Positions 58,838 to 63,641 of a stretch of 64,000 bases of DNA are shown in pieces. Position 1 is the stretch's first letter. Each line of letters opens with the position of its first letter. This stretch comes from Mucilaginibacter terrae (GTDB taxonomy: Bacteria; Bacteroidota; Bacteroidia; Sphingobacteriales; Sphingobacteriaceae). The notes beneath the pieces were generated by a model. It ran no database searches. It saw only the letters and a list, made by a program, of their open reading frames with translations, and was not told the origin of the DNA. The stretch covers positions 4,898,001 through 4,962,000 of the forward strand of contig NZ_JAVLVU010000001.1 in assembly GCF_031951985.1 (NCBI RefSeq). Reading direction: 5' to 3'. Made by a program: the position numbers and the translations under genes.

Positions 58838-59494
58838 ATGAAATTTAAGAGCTTTTTATTTACGTTGTTATTTTTTGCACGCTTAAATAGCATTAGTGCA
58901 CAGGTTGTTTCTCAAGATATTAATGGTAGACCTTATAGATTAAAAGGAGCGGTTGATGTTGAAGGCTCGGCATTTTTGAATGATGATTGGCAAAAAGCAA
59001 CTGTTAAGCTTTCAAACGGGAAAACATATAAAGATGCATCTCTTAAATTTAACCTTGCTGATAATGAGCTTCTTTTTAAAGGGAAAGATGGTGAACCATT
59101 TACTTTTATGGAACCAGTAAGTGAATTTGCAATTACAGATGATTTGCAGAATATTCATACTTACAGAAATGATTATAGCTTTGAAGGAGAGTCTCCTGCT
59201 ACATATTTTGAGGTATTAGCTGATGGAACAACTCAGTTATTGAAAAAGACAACAAAGTCGATAGGTGATTTTAAGGAATATAACGGGCCTATAGTTAAAA
59301 AATATGTTACCTCTGTGAAATATTATTTATATAAGGATAAAAAAGCTATACAAATAAAACCAGATAGAAAATCGCTTTTGTATAGCTTGGGTAGTAAACA
59401 AGCCGAGCTTGATACCTATATAAAAAATAACAACCTTAATTTAAAGCAAGATGCTGATTTGGGAAAAGTTGTGGTTTACTTTAACTCTATATAA
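58838..59494 (+). CDS. Secreted protein of unknown function
   Basis: 218 residues, signal peptide to about 21 (SISA-QVV). The mature part (KGAVDVEGSAFLNDDWQKATVKLSNG, then YFEVLADGTTQLLKK) has alternating strands with no recognised motif. AT-rich codon use like the susC genes just upstream. Its last 19 bases overlap the end of bioD on the other strand. Confidence 0.72.
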   Translation: MKFKSFLFTLLFFARLNSISAQVVSQDINGRPYRLKGAVDVEGSAFLNDDWQKATVKLSNGKTYKDASLKFNLADNELLFKGKDGEPFTFMEPVSEFAITDDLQNIHTYRNDYSFEGESPATYFEVLADGTTQLLKKTTKSIGDFKEYNGPIVKKYVTSVKYYLYKDKKAIQIKPDRKSLLYSLGSKQAELDTYIKNNNLNLKQDADLGKVVVYFNSI

Positions 59495-60096
59495 CTTCCT
59501 TTATCATTAATCCACTGTTTGCTTATAGAATTAATTTTAGGGACATTTAGTAAATTTATACCTGATATATTTTTTAATATTATCTTCTCAGAATACTCAT
59601 CCCTATTTCCATTAAAAATCAAAGTATTCACTTTGATTTTTTTTTGCCTCAATAGTTCGAGTGATAGTAAGGTGTGGTTTATACTTCCCAAATAATGCTT
59701 TACAACTAATATTACTTCGGCGTCGAATTTTTGAATCAAATCAATAACAAAATGCTCATCATTCAAGGGGACCATTAAACCGCCTGCACCCTCTATTATT
59801 AATTGATTATCGGTTTCAGGCAACTCAAATTTATCAAGTTCTATTTTTATACCATCAAGCTCTGCCGATTTATGCGGCGAAAAGGGCTGGGTTAACCGAT
59901 AGGTTTCGGGATGAAAAACTGAAGTGGTATTTGATACTAATGCTTTAACTTTCATCGTATCGCTGTTATTTAAATCGCCCGATTGTACGGGTTTCCAGTA
60001 ATCGGCTTTAAGTTTTTCAACCAATATTGCCGAAACAACTGTTTTACCAACATCGGTGCCAATGCCGGTTACAAAAAGGGGACGGGGCTTATTCAT
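59476..60096 (-). CDS. bioD: Dethiobiotin synthetase
   Basis: 206 residues; ATP- and CO2-dependent ring closure in biotin synthesis. P-loop GIGTDVGKT, YWKPVQSGDL and EGAGGLMVPL are BioD blocks. Slightly AT-rich codon use. bioF lies upstream in the same direction with an 8-bp overlap, so they are co-translated. Confidence 0.93.
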   Translation of the reverse strand: MNKPRPLFVTGIGTDVGKTVVSAILVEKLKADYWKPVQSGDLNNSDTMKVKALVSNTTSVFHPETYRLTQPFSPHKSAELDGIKIELDKFELPETDNQLIIEGAGGLMVPLNDEHFVIDLIQKFDAEVILVVKHYLGSINHTLLSLELLRQKKIKVNTLIFNGNRDEYSEKIILKNISGINLLNVPKINSISKQWINDKGSYIELK

Positions 60097-61204
60097 TGTT
60101 ATCTAAATATTTTAGGGCATTTACCAAGGCATCAATTTGTGCCGGTGTATTGTAACTATGCAAACATATTCTGAGCCTTTCGGTACCTACAGCCACTGTA
60201 GGGCTAAGTATAGGCCGTACATCAAGCCCTGTGTTTTGTAAATGAGCAGCAGCTCTTTTAGTGCGTAGATTGCCGTTTACAATAATGGTTTTTATGGCAC
60301 TGCTGTAAGCAGCAGCGTGTGTGCCCATTTGAGCGTTAAAGTGAGTGATATTTGCTTGAAGGTTATTTATGTGCTCTGAAGCGCTATTTAATAGCTTATA
60401 AGCCATTTTAATGGTTGCCAGCTGATGAAATGGGGAAGCTGTAGTATAAATAAAAGAACGAGCAAAATTAATGAGATAATCACTCAATTTTTTGCTGCCC
60501 AGTATTGCCGCACCGTGGCAGCCCATAGCTTTACCATAAGTAATTATGCGGGCAAAAATCTCTTCCTGTAAATTTAATTTATCAACAAGGCCTTTACCAA
60601 ATACCCCAATGGCATGAGCTTCATCAACAACCAAAGCGGCATTGTACTGGCTGGCAAGTATACAAAGTTCGGTAAGCGGAGCAATATCACCGTCCATCGA
60701 ATACACACTTTCTACAACAATGTAGCAGTTGCCTTTGGCCTGTTTTAATTTTGTTTCGAGCTCATTGAGGTTATTATGTTTAAAGCTGTACCTGTTTGCA
60801 TAGCTCAAGCGTATGCCATCAATAATTGATGCATGGGCAAGTTCATCATGAATTACAGTGTCTCCGCGTTGCGGGAGGGATGATAATAACCCCAGGTTGG
60901 CATCATAACCCGAATTAAACAGTAAAGCAGCTTCGGTGTTATGGTATTGGGCAATATAAGATTCTAACTCTTCGGCATATGCGGTATTGCCTTTTAAAAG
61001 CCTCGAACCGGTTGACCCATTAAAATGGTGAGGGTGATTAAGCAATTCCTGATTAACCAGCTCCTTTAAATCAACTGAGCGTGCAAAACCCAGGTAATCG
61101 TTAGATGAAAAGTCGATCAGGTTGTTTTCGGTTTTTAATTGCCTGTAATTGCCTTTGTGTTGCCTTTGCGCTAACCTTTGCTGTATAAATTGCTGCGGAC
61201 TCAA
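60089..61204 (-). CDS. bioF: 8-amino-7-oxononanoate synthase
   Basis: 371 residues, PLP alpha-oxoamine synthase condensing pimeloyl thioester and alanine. SSNDYLGFA, GSTGSRLLKGN, VDEAHAIGVFGKG, and the PLP Lys in ITYGKAMGCHGAAILG. Start is a TTG (61204). Only bioF and bioD are in the window; bioA and bioB must be elsewhere. Confidence 0.94.
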   Translation of the reverse strand: MSPQQFIQQRLAQRQHKGNYRQLKTENNLIDFSSNDYLGFARSVDLKELVNQELLNHPHHFNGSTGSRLLKGNTAYAEELESYIAQYHNTEAALLFNSGYDANLGLLSSLPQRGDTVIHDELAHASIIDGIRLSYANRYSFKHNNLNELETKLKQAKGNCYIVVESVYSMDGDIAPLTELCILASQYNAALVVDEAHAIGVFGKGLVDKLNLQEEIFARIITYGKAMGCHGAAILGSKKLSDYLINFARSFIYTTASPFHQLATIKMAYKLLNSASEHINNLQANITHFNAQMGTHAAAYSSAIKTIIVNGNLRTKRAAAHLQNTGLDVRPILSPTVAVGTERLRICLHSYNTPAQIDALVNALKYLDNNE

Positions 61205-61264: not shown

Positions 61265-61657
61265 TTATTTTTGAGGTGGAGGAGGGGGATTGCCTCCGCC
61301 GCCGCCCTGGCGCATTCTGTTAGCTCTTTCGGCTTGCATTTTATCAAATGCTTCTTTTTGCTCAGCTGTTAAAACTTCTTTAATTTTTACATTCGAAGCT
61401 TCCATTATAGGACGCCATGCCTGCATCATAGCCTGACGGTCTCCGTTTGCGGCTGTCATTAAGCTATCGCGTTTTTTGGCTTGAACTTCATAAATAGCTT
61501 TTATTTTACCAGTTTGGGTATCATCAAGCTTTAATTGAGTTTGCAAACGTTTGGCTTGCTCTTCAGGTGTTCCACCCATACGGCCACCGCCACCCTGGGC
61601 GAAGCTTACCGCGCTTATTCCTAATACGAAACAGCACATTAATAAGATCTTTTTCAT
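61265..61657 (-). CDS. Small periplasmic Spy/DUF4890-like protein
   Basis: 130 residues, signal peptide to about 20 (SFA-QGGGG). Helical core with PEEQAKRLQTQLKLDDTQTGKIKAIYEVQ...LTAEQKEAFDKM, matching the DUF4890/Spy-like pattern, then Gly- and Pro-rich C-terminus (RQGGGGGNPPPPPQK). Spy-like proteins are periplasmic chaperones; function here is inferred. Confidence 0.85.
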   Translation of the reverse strand: MKKILLMCCFVLGISAVSFAQGGGGRMGGTPEEQAKRLQTQLKLDDTQTGKIKAIYEVQAKKRDSLMTAANGDRQAMMQAWRPIMEASNVKIKEVLTAEQKEAFDKMQAERANRMRQGGGGGNPPPPPQK

Positions 61658-61721: not shown

Positions 61722-62495
61722 TTAATTGTTGCTTTGCAGTTTCGAAATTGATTTCTGCATTTCGGACATCATGCTGGTCAGGTTTTCAATGCTTGGCTCA
61801 GGCATAGGGGTTGGCAATTGTGTTGATAAATAAGCCTTGGCCTTCCATATTTCTAAAATGTCCTCGCCGCTAATTTCATAAGGATCGTAAGCAGGGTTGT
61901 CTGATATTAATTTCAGCTTTTTATTATCTCGATATTTATTGCCAATGCGTTTGTATACCACACCTTCGGTTTTAGAAAGTACCACATAAGTTTCTCCCGG
62001 TTTTATATCGCCCCAGTTTTCAACATATTCGCCTATAATTAATGTGCCCGAAACCAGTGGCAGCATAGAGTCGCCTTTTATTTCGAAAGCACGGTAAGTA
62101 CCTTGCTTAAACATAGGTAAATGTAATTTTGATAAGCCGGCAACATATTCAGGATCGGCATAACCATTCAAATAACCGGCACTTGCTTTTACCGGTACCA
62201 TTTCAATGTTTTCGTTATCATCCTTATCAACCGTAATACTCAGCACGCGTAAGTTGGCCGGGTTACCTTTGGGTTTGGGTGCCCACTTTTCGTTAATGGT
62301 TTCATTAATAAAATCATCTATGCTTATTTCAAAATACAATGCTATTTTTTTTAGCAGATCATATTTCGGATCAGCACGGTCTTCCTCATAAGCACCCACT
62401 AACGATCTTTTTATGCCTATTTCGTCGGCAAATTGCTGTTGGGTAAGGCCTTTCTTTTTTCTGAGGAATTTAATATTTGTTGAAATTATTGACAT
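61722..62495 (-). CDS. Xre-family regulator with S24 (LexA-like) protease domain
   Basis: 257 residues. N-terminal HTH (1-65: IKFLRKKKGLTQQQFADEIGIKRSLVGAYEEDRADP), then an S24 domain (~100-225) with catalytic Ser143 (GDSMLP) and Lys182 (VVYKRIG), and possible Ala-Gly cleavage site at 106-107. It may cleave itself after a stress signal, as LexA and phage repressors do. Divergent from the GIY-YIG gene; three half-sites TTACTAA/TTAGTAA lie between. Confidence 0.92.
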   Translation of the reverse strand: MSIISTNIKFLRKKKGLTQQQFADEIGIKRSLVGAYEEDRADPKYDLLKKIALYFEISIDDFINETINEKWAPKPKGNPANLRVLSITVDKDDNENIEMVPVKASAGYLNGYADPEYVAGLSKLHLPMFKQGTYRAFEIKGDSMLPLVSGTLIIGEYVENWGDIKPGETYVVLSKTEGVVYKRIGNKYRDNKKLKLISDNPAYDPYEISGEDILEIWKAKAYLSTQLPTPMPEPSIENLTSMMSEMQKSISKLQSNN

Positions 62496-62506
62496 AAAAT
62501 TTGGAA

Positions 62507-62549
62507 TTACTAAATTTGTTAGTAAAATTTATGCTCATAAAATTAGTAA
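62507..62549. promoter_or_regulatory. Three half-site operator between S24 regulator and GIY-YIG genes
   Basis: TTACTAA (62507-62513) and TTAGTAA (62519-62525) form an inverted repeat with a 5-bp spacer, and a third TTAGTAA is at 62543-62549. The spacer region contains the GIY-YIG gene's -7 element TAAATTTG (62511-62518). Likely bound by the S24 regulator; inference. Confidence 0.65.
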
Positions 62550-62581
62550 CAATAATTCATTTAGCAAAATTTATTATCAAA

Positions 62582-62938
62582 ATGAAGCAGTATATATATA
62601 TAATAACCGACAGAAACCGCACTAATTTACATGTAGGCCTATGTACTGATATGATGAAGACCATACAGTTTTACCGTGACATGCCTACCTTGTTTTTTGA
62701 TAAGGCGCAACAGCTAAACCGTTTAGTATATTTTGAGGAGATTAATACCGAAGAGCAGGCCATGGAGCGCTTTAAATATTTAAGCACCTTTACCCGTGCA
62801 CAAAAAGAAAAAATGATCAGATCGGTTAATGCCGATTGGATAGACCTTACTGTAGGCTTGAAACTTGAAAGCAATATGAGAGTTCGTCCGTTGCTCAGAC
62901 CATCATTGGCAACTGCTAAGCGTCCACTTGTTTTTTAA
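62582..62938 (+). CDS. GIY-YIG family protein, catalytically degenerate
   Basis: 118 residues from ATG 62582. The fold matches the small GIY-YIG family: YIYIITDRNRTNLHVG, LVYFEEI, RAQKEKMIRSVNADWIDL. But compared with active nucleases the Tyr of YIG is His17, the catalytic Arg is Thr27, and the Glu that binds metal is Phe64, while the conserved Asn83 (VNADW) remains. Cleavage is therefore unlikely. It may bind DNA or another partner. Divergent partner of the S24 regulator. Confidence 0.83.
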   Translation: MKQYIYIITDRNRTNLHVGLCTDMMKTIQFYRDMPTLFFDKAQQLNRLVYFEEINTEEQAMERFKYLSTFTRAQKEKMIRSVNADWIDLTVGLKLESNMRVRPLLRPSLATAKRPLVF

Positions 62939-63026: not shown

Positions 63027-63641
63027 TTACATAGCCTTGTCTTTAGGCACTAACACACGTGTTATTAAGTGCATTAGTCCGTTGTTTTCTTCAATATTAA
63101 ACTGGCTGATAACACTTTTGCCGCCAGTTTCATCTGTAAATTGTATGTTGCGGTTTTCATCAATGCGGGCCGTAAGCTTACTGCCCGCGAGGGTTAAAAT
63201 GGAAGCCTCGCCATGTCCATCGTTAATGAGTTTCGTAAGGCTTTTAATCGTATACTCACCCGCAAGTATATGATAGCTCAGCACGTTTATCAACTCATAT
63301 TTGTGGGCCGGTTTCATAAGCGTATCCAACCTCAAACCTAATTGTTGCTTAAATGCACTATCAGGAGGAGCTAACAAAGTAAGTGGCCCCCGGCTTTTTA
63401 ACGTGCCTACCATATTTGCAGCCCTAACCGCAGCCAAAAACGTTGTATGTGTTTTTGATGCTGTTAAGTTCTCTATAAAATCCATTGCCGAATTTACCGG
63501 CGCTCCGTTAACCATTACTGTTTTGCCACTTGATGTACTTGCCCTTACCGAATCCTGGTATGAGGAGCCACGAGGCGGGGTAGTTTGCGCGAATGCAAAA
63601 CCAGTTGTTAAGAGTAATAGGAGAGCAAGTAGGTTTTTCAT
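63027..63641 (-). CDS. Fasciclin (FAS1) domain secreted protein
   Basis: 204 residues, signal peptide to about 19 (AFA-QTT). One FAS1 domain (~55-200): FLAAVRAANMVGTLKSRGPLTLLAPPDSAF, YELINVLSYHILAGEYTIKSL and the closing NGLMHLITRVLVP. Cell-surface/adhesion-type fold; single gene. Confidence 0.93.
   Translation of the reverse strand: MKNLLALLLLLTTGFAFAQTTPPRGSSYQDSVRASTSSGKTVMVNGAPVNSAMDFIENLTASKTHTTFLAAVRAANMVGTLKSRGPLTLLAPPDSAFKQQLGLRLDTLMKPAHKYELINVLSYHILAGEYTIKSLTKLINDGHGEASILTLAGSKLTARIDENRNIQFTDETGGKSVISQFNIEENNGLMHLITRVLVPKDKAM

Follow-up and report, generated by a model that had tools for sequence, protein, structure and literature searches.

A GIY-YIG-fold protein without its catalytic residues as a probable SOS-controlled partner of a LexA-like S24 repressor in Mucilaginibacter and most other Sphingobacteriaceae

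Why would a bacterium keep, next to a repressor of the DNA damage type, a protein with the fold of a nuclease that has lost the residues with which such nucleases cut? The locus that raises this question lies in a 64,000-nucleotide stretch of Mucilaginibacter terrae DNA (the window, to whose numbering positions refer unless another locus is named), part of a 5.49-Mb single-contig genome. A 257-amino-acid HTH_3 (XRE)-S24 repressor is encoded on the minus strand (61722..62495) and a 118-amino-acid GIY-YIG-fold protein, referred to here as the GIY-like protein, on the plus strand (62582..62938), the two genes being divergent with start codons 86 bp apart. A first-pass annotation of the sequence had proposed that a damage-responsive switch controls a non-cutting DNA-binding protein here, and the residues and positions that it gave for both proteins were all found to be correct when rechecked on the translations. 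Around the pair, a fasciclin-domain protein (63027-63641, minus strand), a protein with weak LTXXQ/heavy-metal-resistance matches (61265-61657, minus strand) and genes resembling bioD and bioF by eye (59476-61204) were noted, and inspection of these window neighbours by eye revealed no mobile element.

The repressor matches Pfam HTH_3 (E=1.5e-14) and Peptidase_S24 (E=4.7e-9). It carries the Ser/Lys pair of self-cleaving repressors that the first reading had ascribed to it, since Ser142 and Lys181, together with the putative cleavage site Ala105-Gly106, are invariant in an 18-row family alignment of repressors. The pattern AG...GDSM...Y[KR][KR] is present in 161 of the 165 divergent regulators, the other four being three partial frames and one protein (L199) with FKR for YKR. 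Of 198 genomes of the class, 139 contain relatives of the repressor at E<=1e-30. Within the window genome, only one other S24 protein was found (L079), for which no NCBIfam model matched and no Pfam HTH was recognised.

A class of non-canonical LexA proteins in Bacteroidetes, with a CTAA-N5-TTAG operator, has been described previously (Sanchez-Osuna et al., 2021; PMC8565304). The available part of that article reports EMSA and mutagenesis of the operator in P. actiniarum, mitomycin C induction measured by RT-qPCR in other Bacteroidetes, and large regulons of this repressor class in Sphingobacteriaceae. The regulator studied here shares with that group, as portrayed there, the HTH_3 and Peptidase_S24 domains, the Ala-Gly and Ser-Lys residues, a CTAA-N5-TTAG motif in its own promoter, and the same motif ahead of core SOS genes of its genome, in a regulon with recA, dinB, imuA-imuB-dnaE2 and SRAP. 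Judged by these features, we assign it to the non-canonical group. The proposal of a damage-responsive switch is therefore supported by sequence, although it is not new, the repressor and operator class already being on record in that article. What sets the present locus apart is the small dead GIY-YIG partner, which is absent from the main text of PMC8565304; the sole GIY-YIG mention in the part available is a COG0847 exonuclease, a protein different from the GIY-like one.

The space between the two genes contains three heptamers, at 62507-62513, 62519-62525 and 62543-62549, which had been read as three TTACTAA/TTAGTAA half-sites. Their positions are right and their arrangement is conserved, but they are better described as a perfect predicted operator, O1 (TTACTAA-N5-TTAGTAA, 62507..62525, with its CTAA-N5-TTAG core at 62510-62522), followed by an imperfect predicted operator, O2 (CTCA-N5-TTAG, 62534..62546), whose right half lies in the third heptamer. 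Counted singly, the heptamers show no enrichment in the window, with 11 occurrences against 15.8 expected from shuffling. Their arrangement was compared across 127 distinct intergenic sequences from 163 loci, with loci left out where the gap exceeded 260 bp or a gene was missing. CTAA-N5-TTAG occurs in 127/127 of these sequences, as against a mean of 0.4% and a maximum of 1.6% in shuffles, and a second, imperfect box (C-N-N-A-N5-TTAG) follows the first in 124; the remaining three are g28 loci, in which the perfect and imperfect boxes are swapped. O2 is imperfect in all 124 aligned blocks, its left half being CTCA in 77 and CCAA in 36, with T as the last base of the left half in two blocks. The distance from TTAG to TTAG is 23 bp in 118 of these blocks, 21 bp in five and 24 bp in one, which is that of the window.

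Candidate promoter elements were placed with the Bacteroidetes-type promoter consensus (-33/-7). For the rightward promoter of the GIY-like gene, these are a -33 element, TTTG, at 62500..62503 (plus strand), positioned by the pattern in relatives, and a -7 element, TAAAATTTA, at 62523..62531 (plus strand), which reads TA-AT-TTTA in most relatives; the alternative -7 element chosen in the first-pass annotation is TAAATTTG at 62511-62518. The repressor's own promoter has, by the mirror pattern, a candidate -7 element, TAATTTTA, at 62538..62545 (minus strand), overlapping O2, and a candidate -33 element, TTTG on the minus strand, at 62565..62568. With this consensus, the rightward pattern TTTG-N17-21-TAnn(n)TTT[AG] was found in 85 of the 127 sequences, versus 5.6% in shuffles, and the leftward mirror pattern in 100 of them, versus 6.0%. 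The candidate elements point toward each other across O1 and O2, and the two operators are so placed that they would be expected to block both promoters.

The same operator marks promoters elsewhere in the genome. A search with TTACTAA-N5-TTAGTAA and up to 3 mismatches gave no signal (708 genome matches versus 747 for the reversed control), and the pattern was refined to WTRCTAANNNNNTTAGYAW on this genome after sites had been seen beside polymerase genes. Exactly 13 sites fit the refined pattern in 5.49 Mb, compared with 1.4 expected from a first-order dinucleotide model of the window, and 12 of them are no more than 70 bp from an ORF start; the other (L076, G000:C1:4758507-4758525) is a perfect SOS box with no ORF starting next to it. 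A box stands upstream of five of the six genes for IMS-domain Y-family polymerases or of the cassettes in which they sit, and the sixth (3457004) has no WTRCTAANNNNNTTAGYAW site. Boxes were found at a Y-family polymerase gene that is divergent from SRAP and is followed by a PHP-domain (DnaE-type) gene, at a second Y-family polymerase gene, at a third that is divergent from a 2'-5' RNA ligase-like gene, at a 157-amino-acid ORF, at recA and at the repressor/GIY-like locus. A DUF763 gene (L074, G000:C1:2535343) and a gene for a radical-SAM protein (L073, G000:C1:2429865), one of two radical-SAM proteins among the boxed genes in all, have a perfect box at or just before the start.

A small ORF opens each of two boxed cassettes, and each cassette encodes an IMS-domain protein. 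These ImuB-type cassettes lie near 453 kb and 1,695 kb of the genome, and their small ORFs begin right after the SOS box (L069:1541-1957, 138 amino acids, with no Pfam match; L072:1127-1471, 114 amino acids); in the first cassette, the ORF after the small one encodes an ImuA-like protein (NCBIfam ImuA E=4.7e-16, below the model cut-off). The small ORFs are possibly new SOS genes. Running away from each of the two cassettes is an operon that combines a small ORF with a 2OG-Fe(II) oxygenase gene (AlkB-like) and is also boxed (L008:583-1467 and L072:1526-2928).

Because the pattern was refined on this genome, more independent tests of it come from the recA sites and from the 127 intergenic sequences. 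Of 22 Mucilaginibacter genomes, 20 have CTAA-N5-TTAG 57-61 bp before the ATG of recA, a gene recognised by inspection of its sequence, and 19 of these 20 have the full pattern; the recA promoters of the other two (L258 and L261) are without the motif, as are those of all 8 genomes examined from other families. As predicted from these sites, the 13-site set is an SOS regulon, with the repressor/GIY-like locus as one of its promoters. What was taken at first for a local pair is thus one promoter region of a genome-wide regulon.

The product that this promoter would supply has the GIY-YIG fold, as judged from sequence and a structure model. The Pfam GIY-YIG match (E=0.0048, 17.6 bits) is under the curated cut-off of 22.6, and a PDB profile search found 1zg2 (E=8e-5). 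An AlphaFold2 model (pLDDT 79.5, pTM 0.66) retrieved 1zg2 with Foldseek (E=1.5e-4, prob 1.00), UPF0213 proteins being the best matches and Slx1 and I-TevI ranking below them. VIA-align to 1zg2 gave Z 7.2 and rmsd 5.3 over 78 aligned residues and, as this Z is below 8, the fold call rests on Foldseek and sequence rather than on Z alone. With UPF0213-type proteins (PDB 1zg2, 1ywl), the GIY-like protein shares the fold and a C-terminal Asn-x-x-Trp motif; unlike them, it has the YIG Tyr, the Arg and the Glu replaced, and its gene is fixed beside an SOS repressor.

The replacements claimed at the outset, His17, Thr27 and Phe64 for the active-site Tyr, Arg and Glu with Asn83 kept, were confirmed in the GIY-like protein, and alignment of its family indicated that the losses are common to the orthologous group. 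Among 144 distinct orthologues from 168 loci, the YIG Tyr is gone in all 144 (His stands there in 121), the metal-binding Glu is likewise gone in all 144, with mostly Phe instead, and the catalytic Arg is lost in 139 and kept in 5. Asn83 is present in 144/144, Tyr6 is largely retained, and Arg80 is present in 142/144, a position at which Asn is found in two ordinary paralogues (L218, L219). GIY-YIG relatives from other families served as a control: Tyr, Arg and Glu are all present in 23 of 25, and of the remaining two, one is a frame that was wrongly chosen and the other a partial frame. An ordinary GIY-YIG paralogue in the same genome (L283) keeps all three as well. The GIY-like protein thus lacks the Tyr, Arg and metal-binding Glu by which a GIY-YIG nuclease is recognised, and we infer that nuclease activity has been lost.

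The partner is nevertheless widely kept. Its closest relatives in the named genome collection come from Mucilaginibacter species or uncultured Bacteroidetes/Sphingobacteriaceae, and a profile search found the gene in 183 of 201 Sphingobacteriaceae genomes and 22 of 25 genera, with one copy per genome in nearly all 183. The 18 genomes with no profile match were followed up, 17 by a search for the repressor and one (G075) by direct reading. Seven of them, all g39, have a diverged GIY-like copy beside the repressor; eight lack the repressor too, six of these being less than 90% complete; two (G066 and G091) have the repressor, with a polymerase gene in place of the GIY-like gene; and one (G124) has the repressor and neither the GIY-like gene nor the operator. 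The pair is divergent in 107 of 110 Mucilaginibacter loci (many genomes are counted twice, and the three misses are at contig ends) and in 58 of 58 other Sphingobacteriaceae loci. In one of those 58 (L170, genome G116), the repressor and GIY-like genes are separated by a gene for a Y-family polymerase that runs on the strand of the GIY-like gene, an arrangement which fits SOS co-expression, as if polymerase and GIY-like genes formed one operon. Outside the Sphingobacteriaceae, none of 19 repressor loci has a GIY-like partner beside it. The protein is 65-87% identical across the genus, and its length and C-terminus vary outside the genus; in genomes that we label Sphingobacterium-like by inference, it is about 27-35% identical, and the repressor 65-67%. 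With a median dN/dS of 0.088 (59 usable of 120 pairs, 61 being saturated or undefined), the gene appears to be under purifying selection.

Taken together, we regard it as very probable that the GIY-like gene is SOS-controlled and that its protein is non-cutting and functionally retained. The regulator would be the stand-in of the genus for LexA, of a published type, holding the divergent promoter shut through O1, the perfect site, and O2, the imperfect one, and also controlling recA, Y-family polymerases, cassettes of the imuA-imuB-dnaE2 type and other repair genes. Upon DNA damage, RecA filaments would trigger self-cleavage of the repressor, as its conserved residues suggest, and the regulon, including the GIY-like gene, would be switched on, as the operators suggest. 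The GIY-like protein would descend from a UPF0213-type GIY-YIG nuclease, with catalysis lost and a non-cutting role in the SOS response taken on. The action that we favour, while holding it at somewhat below even chances, is binding to a DNA structure or a repair complex without cutting. GIY-YIG domains usually need another domain to bind DNA, and no added domain was seen in the GIY-like protein, which is a point against its being a DNA binder.

Second in our ranking, and rather less likely than not, is that the protein instead acts as a co-repressor or feedback partner like DdrR or gp7, aiding the occupancy of O2 or altering repressor cleavage and so resetting the response. The umuDAb/ddrR locus of Acinetobacter has the same layout, with divergent genes, a common operator region, an S24 repressor and a small, lineage-restricted protein (PMC11332147), and the second box at which gp7 acts is a non-canonical one (PMC4551915). 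The constant imperfection of O2 points in the same direction, as do the two g31 genomes in which a polymerase gene replaces the GIY-like gene (L277 and L278, from G091 and G066, respectively), where both operators are perfect at the same 23-bp spacing, and the eight genomes from which partner and repressor are absent together. However, the two-box argument comes down to two genomes, the g28 loci have their boxes swapped, and six of the eight co-absences are in the incomplete genomes mentioned above. Furthermore, divergence in the Sphingobacterium-like genomes is much more rapid in the GIY-like protein than in the repressor. In a search for a possible interface, only two repressor positions were 95% invariant where the partner is present and altered in each of the three family genomes that lack it, and no surface of the repressor followed the presence of the partner. 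A related suggestion, to which we give slightly less weight and which we consider doubtful, is that the dead nuclease, produced from the promoter divergent to that of the repressor, modulates the SOS response: by binding either the repressor or the DNA that the repressor binds, it would bring about occupancy of O2 and thereby set the threshold or the shut-off. It is equally doubtful, as part of the same suggestion, that the active site was lost early in the Sphingobacteriaceae and the pseudo-nuclease then turned into an SOS co-regulator.

The known systems differ from this one in instructive respects. UmuDAb-DdrR resembles it in the S24 damage repressor, the unusual operator and the small divergent lineage-restricted partner, whose gene likewise shares the repressor's operator region; DdrR is set apart by its description, which does not present it as a GIY-YIG protein in the available part of PMC11332147, and by co-repressor action, which is established in Acinetobacter and hypothetical here. 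The gp7 protein of phage GIL01, which works with the host LexA (PMC4551915), is comparable in being a small protein that assists an SOS repressor at a canonical and a non-canonical box, a role that would be putative for the GIY-like protein; unlike the latter, it is phage-encoded. CapR of PLE satellites is, in the portion of PMC10448857 available, a non-cutting regulator derived from a homing-endonuclease protein, a role that is putative for the GIY-like protein; CapR keeps the zinc-finger DNA-binding domain and no nuclease fold, whereas the GIY-like protein keeps the fold only.

That the protein still cuts DNA through other residues or a changed metal site, and is an SOS-induced repair nuclease, we consider very improbable. 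The fold is retained, Tyr6 and Asn83 are largely retained, and a number of acidic residues, Glu52 among them, do not vary in a 30-row alignment; against this, the metal-binding Glu and the YIG Tyr are absent from every one of the 144 orthologues. Still less credible is that the gene is a decaying relic kept only through the adjoining repressor: apart from the Asn the catalytic residues are lost, and length and C-terminus are variable outside the genus, but the low dN/dS, on which we rejected this explanation, the level of identity within the genus and the single copy in nearly all 183 genomes all speak for a maintained gene. Least probable of all, a lysis/lysogeny switch of the prophage type was rejected despite the CI-like architecture and the PHROG repressor matches of the regulator, given that the pair is conserved family-wide, the operator stands ahead of recA, and 50,697 phage records hold no relative of the GIY-like protein, which is also unmatched in PHROGs, and two weak relatives of the regulator. 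A defence island was also considered and set aside, as PADLOC gave no match for the GIY-like protein and matches of the regulator that cover the HTH part only.

In summary, the repressor and the operator at this locus were already known, whereas a conserved SOS partner in the form of a dead nuclease appears to be undescribed in the open-access literature searched, which yielded no report on Bacteroidetes of an S24 repressor paired with a small, catalytically dead GIY-YIG protein. Since the pairing is kept across most of the Sphingobacteriaceae, the dead enzyme probably has an undescribed job in the damage response. A single-copy nuclease fold without catalytic residues beside an SOS repressor points to a new step in that response, and the question can be addressed directly because Mucilaginibacter is culturable. 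If the suggestion of an SOS modulator is true, the GIY-like protein would represent a pseudo-nuclease with the function of an SOS co-regulator. The recurrence of the UmuDAb-DdrR layout would suggest that lineages lacking LexA recruit small divergent partners more than once.
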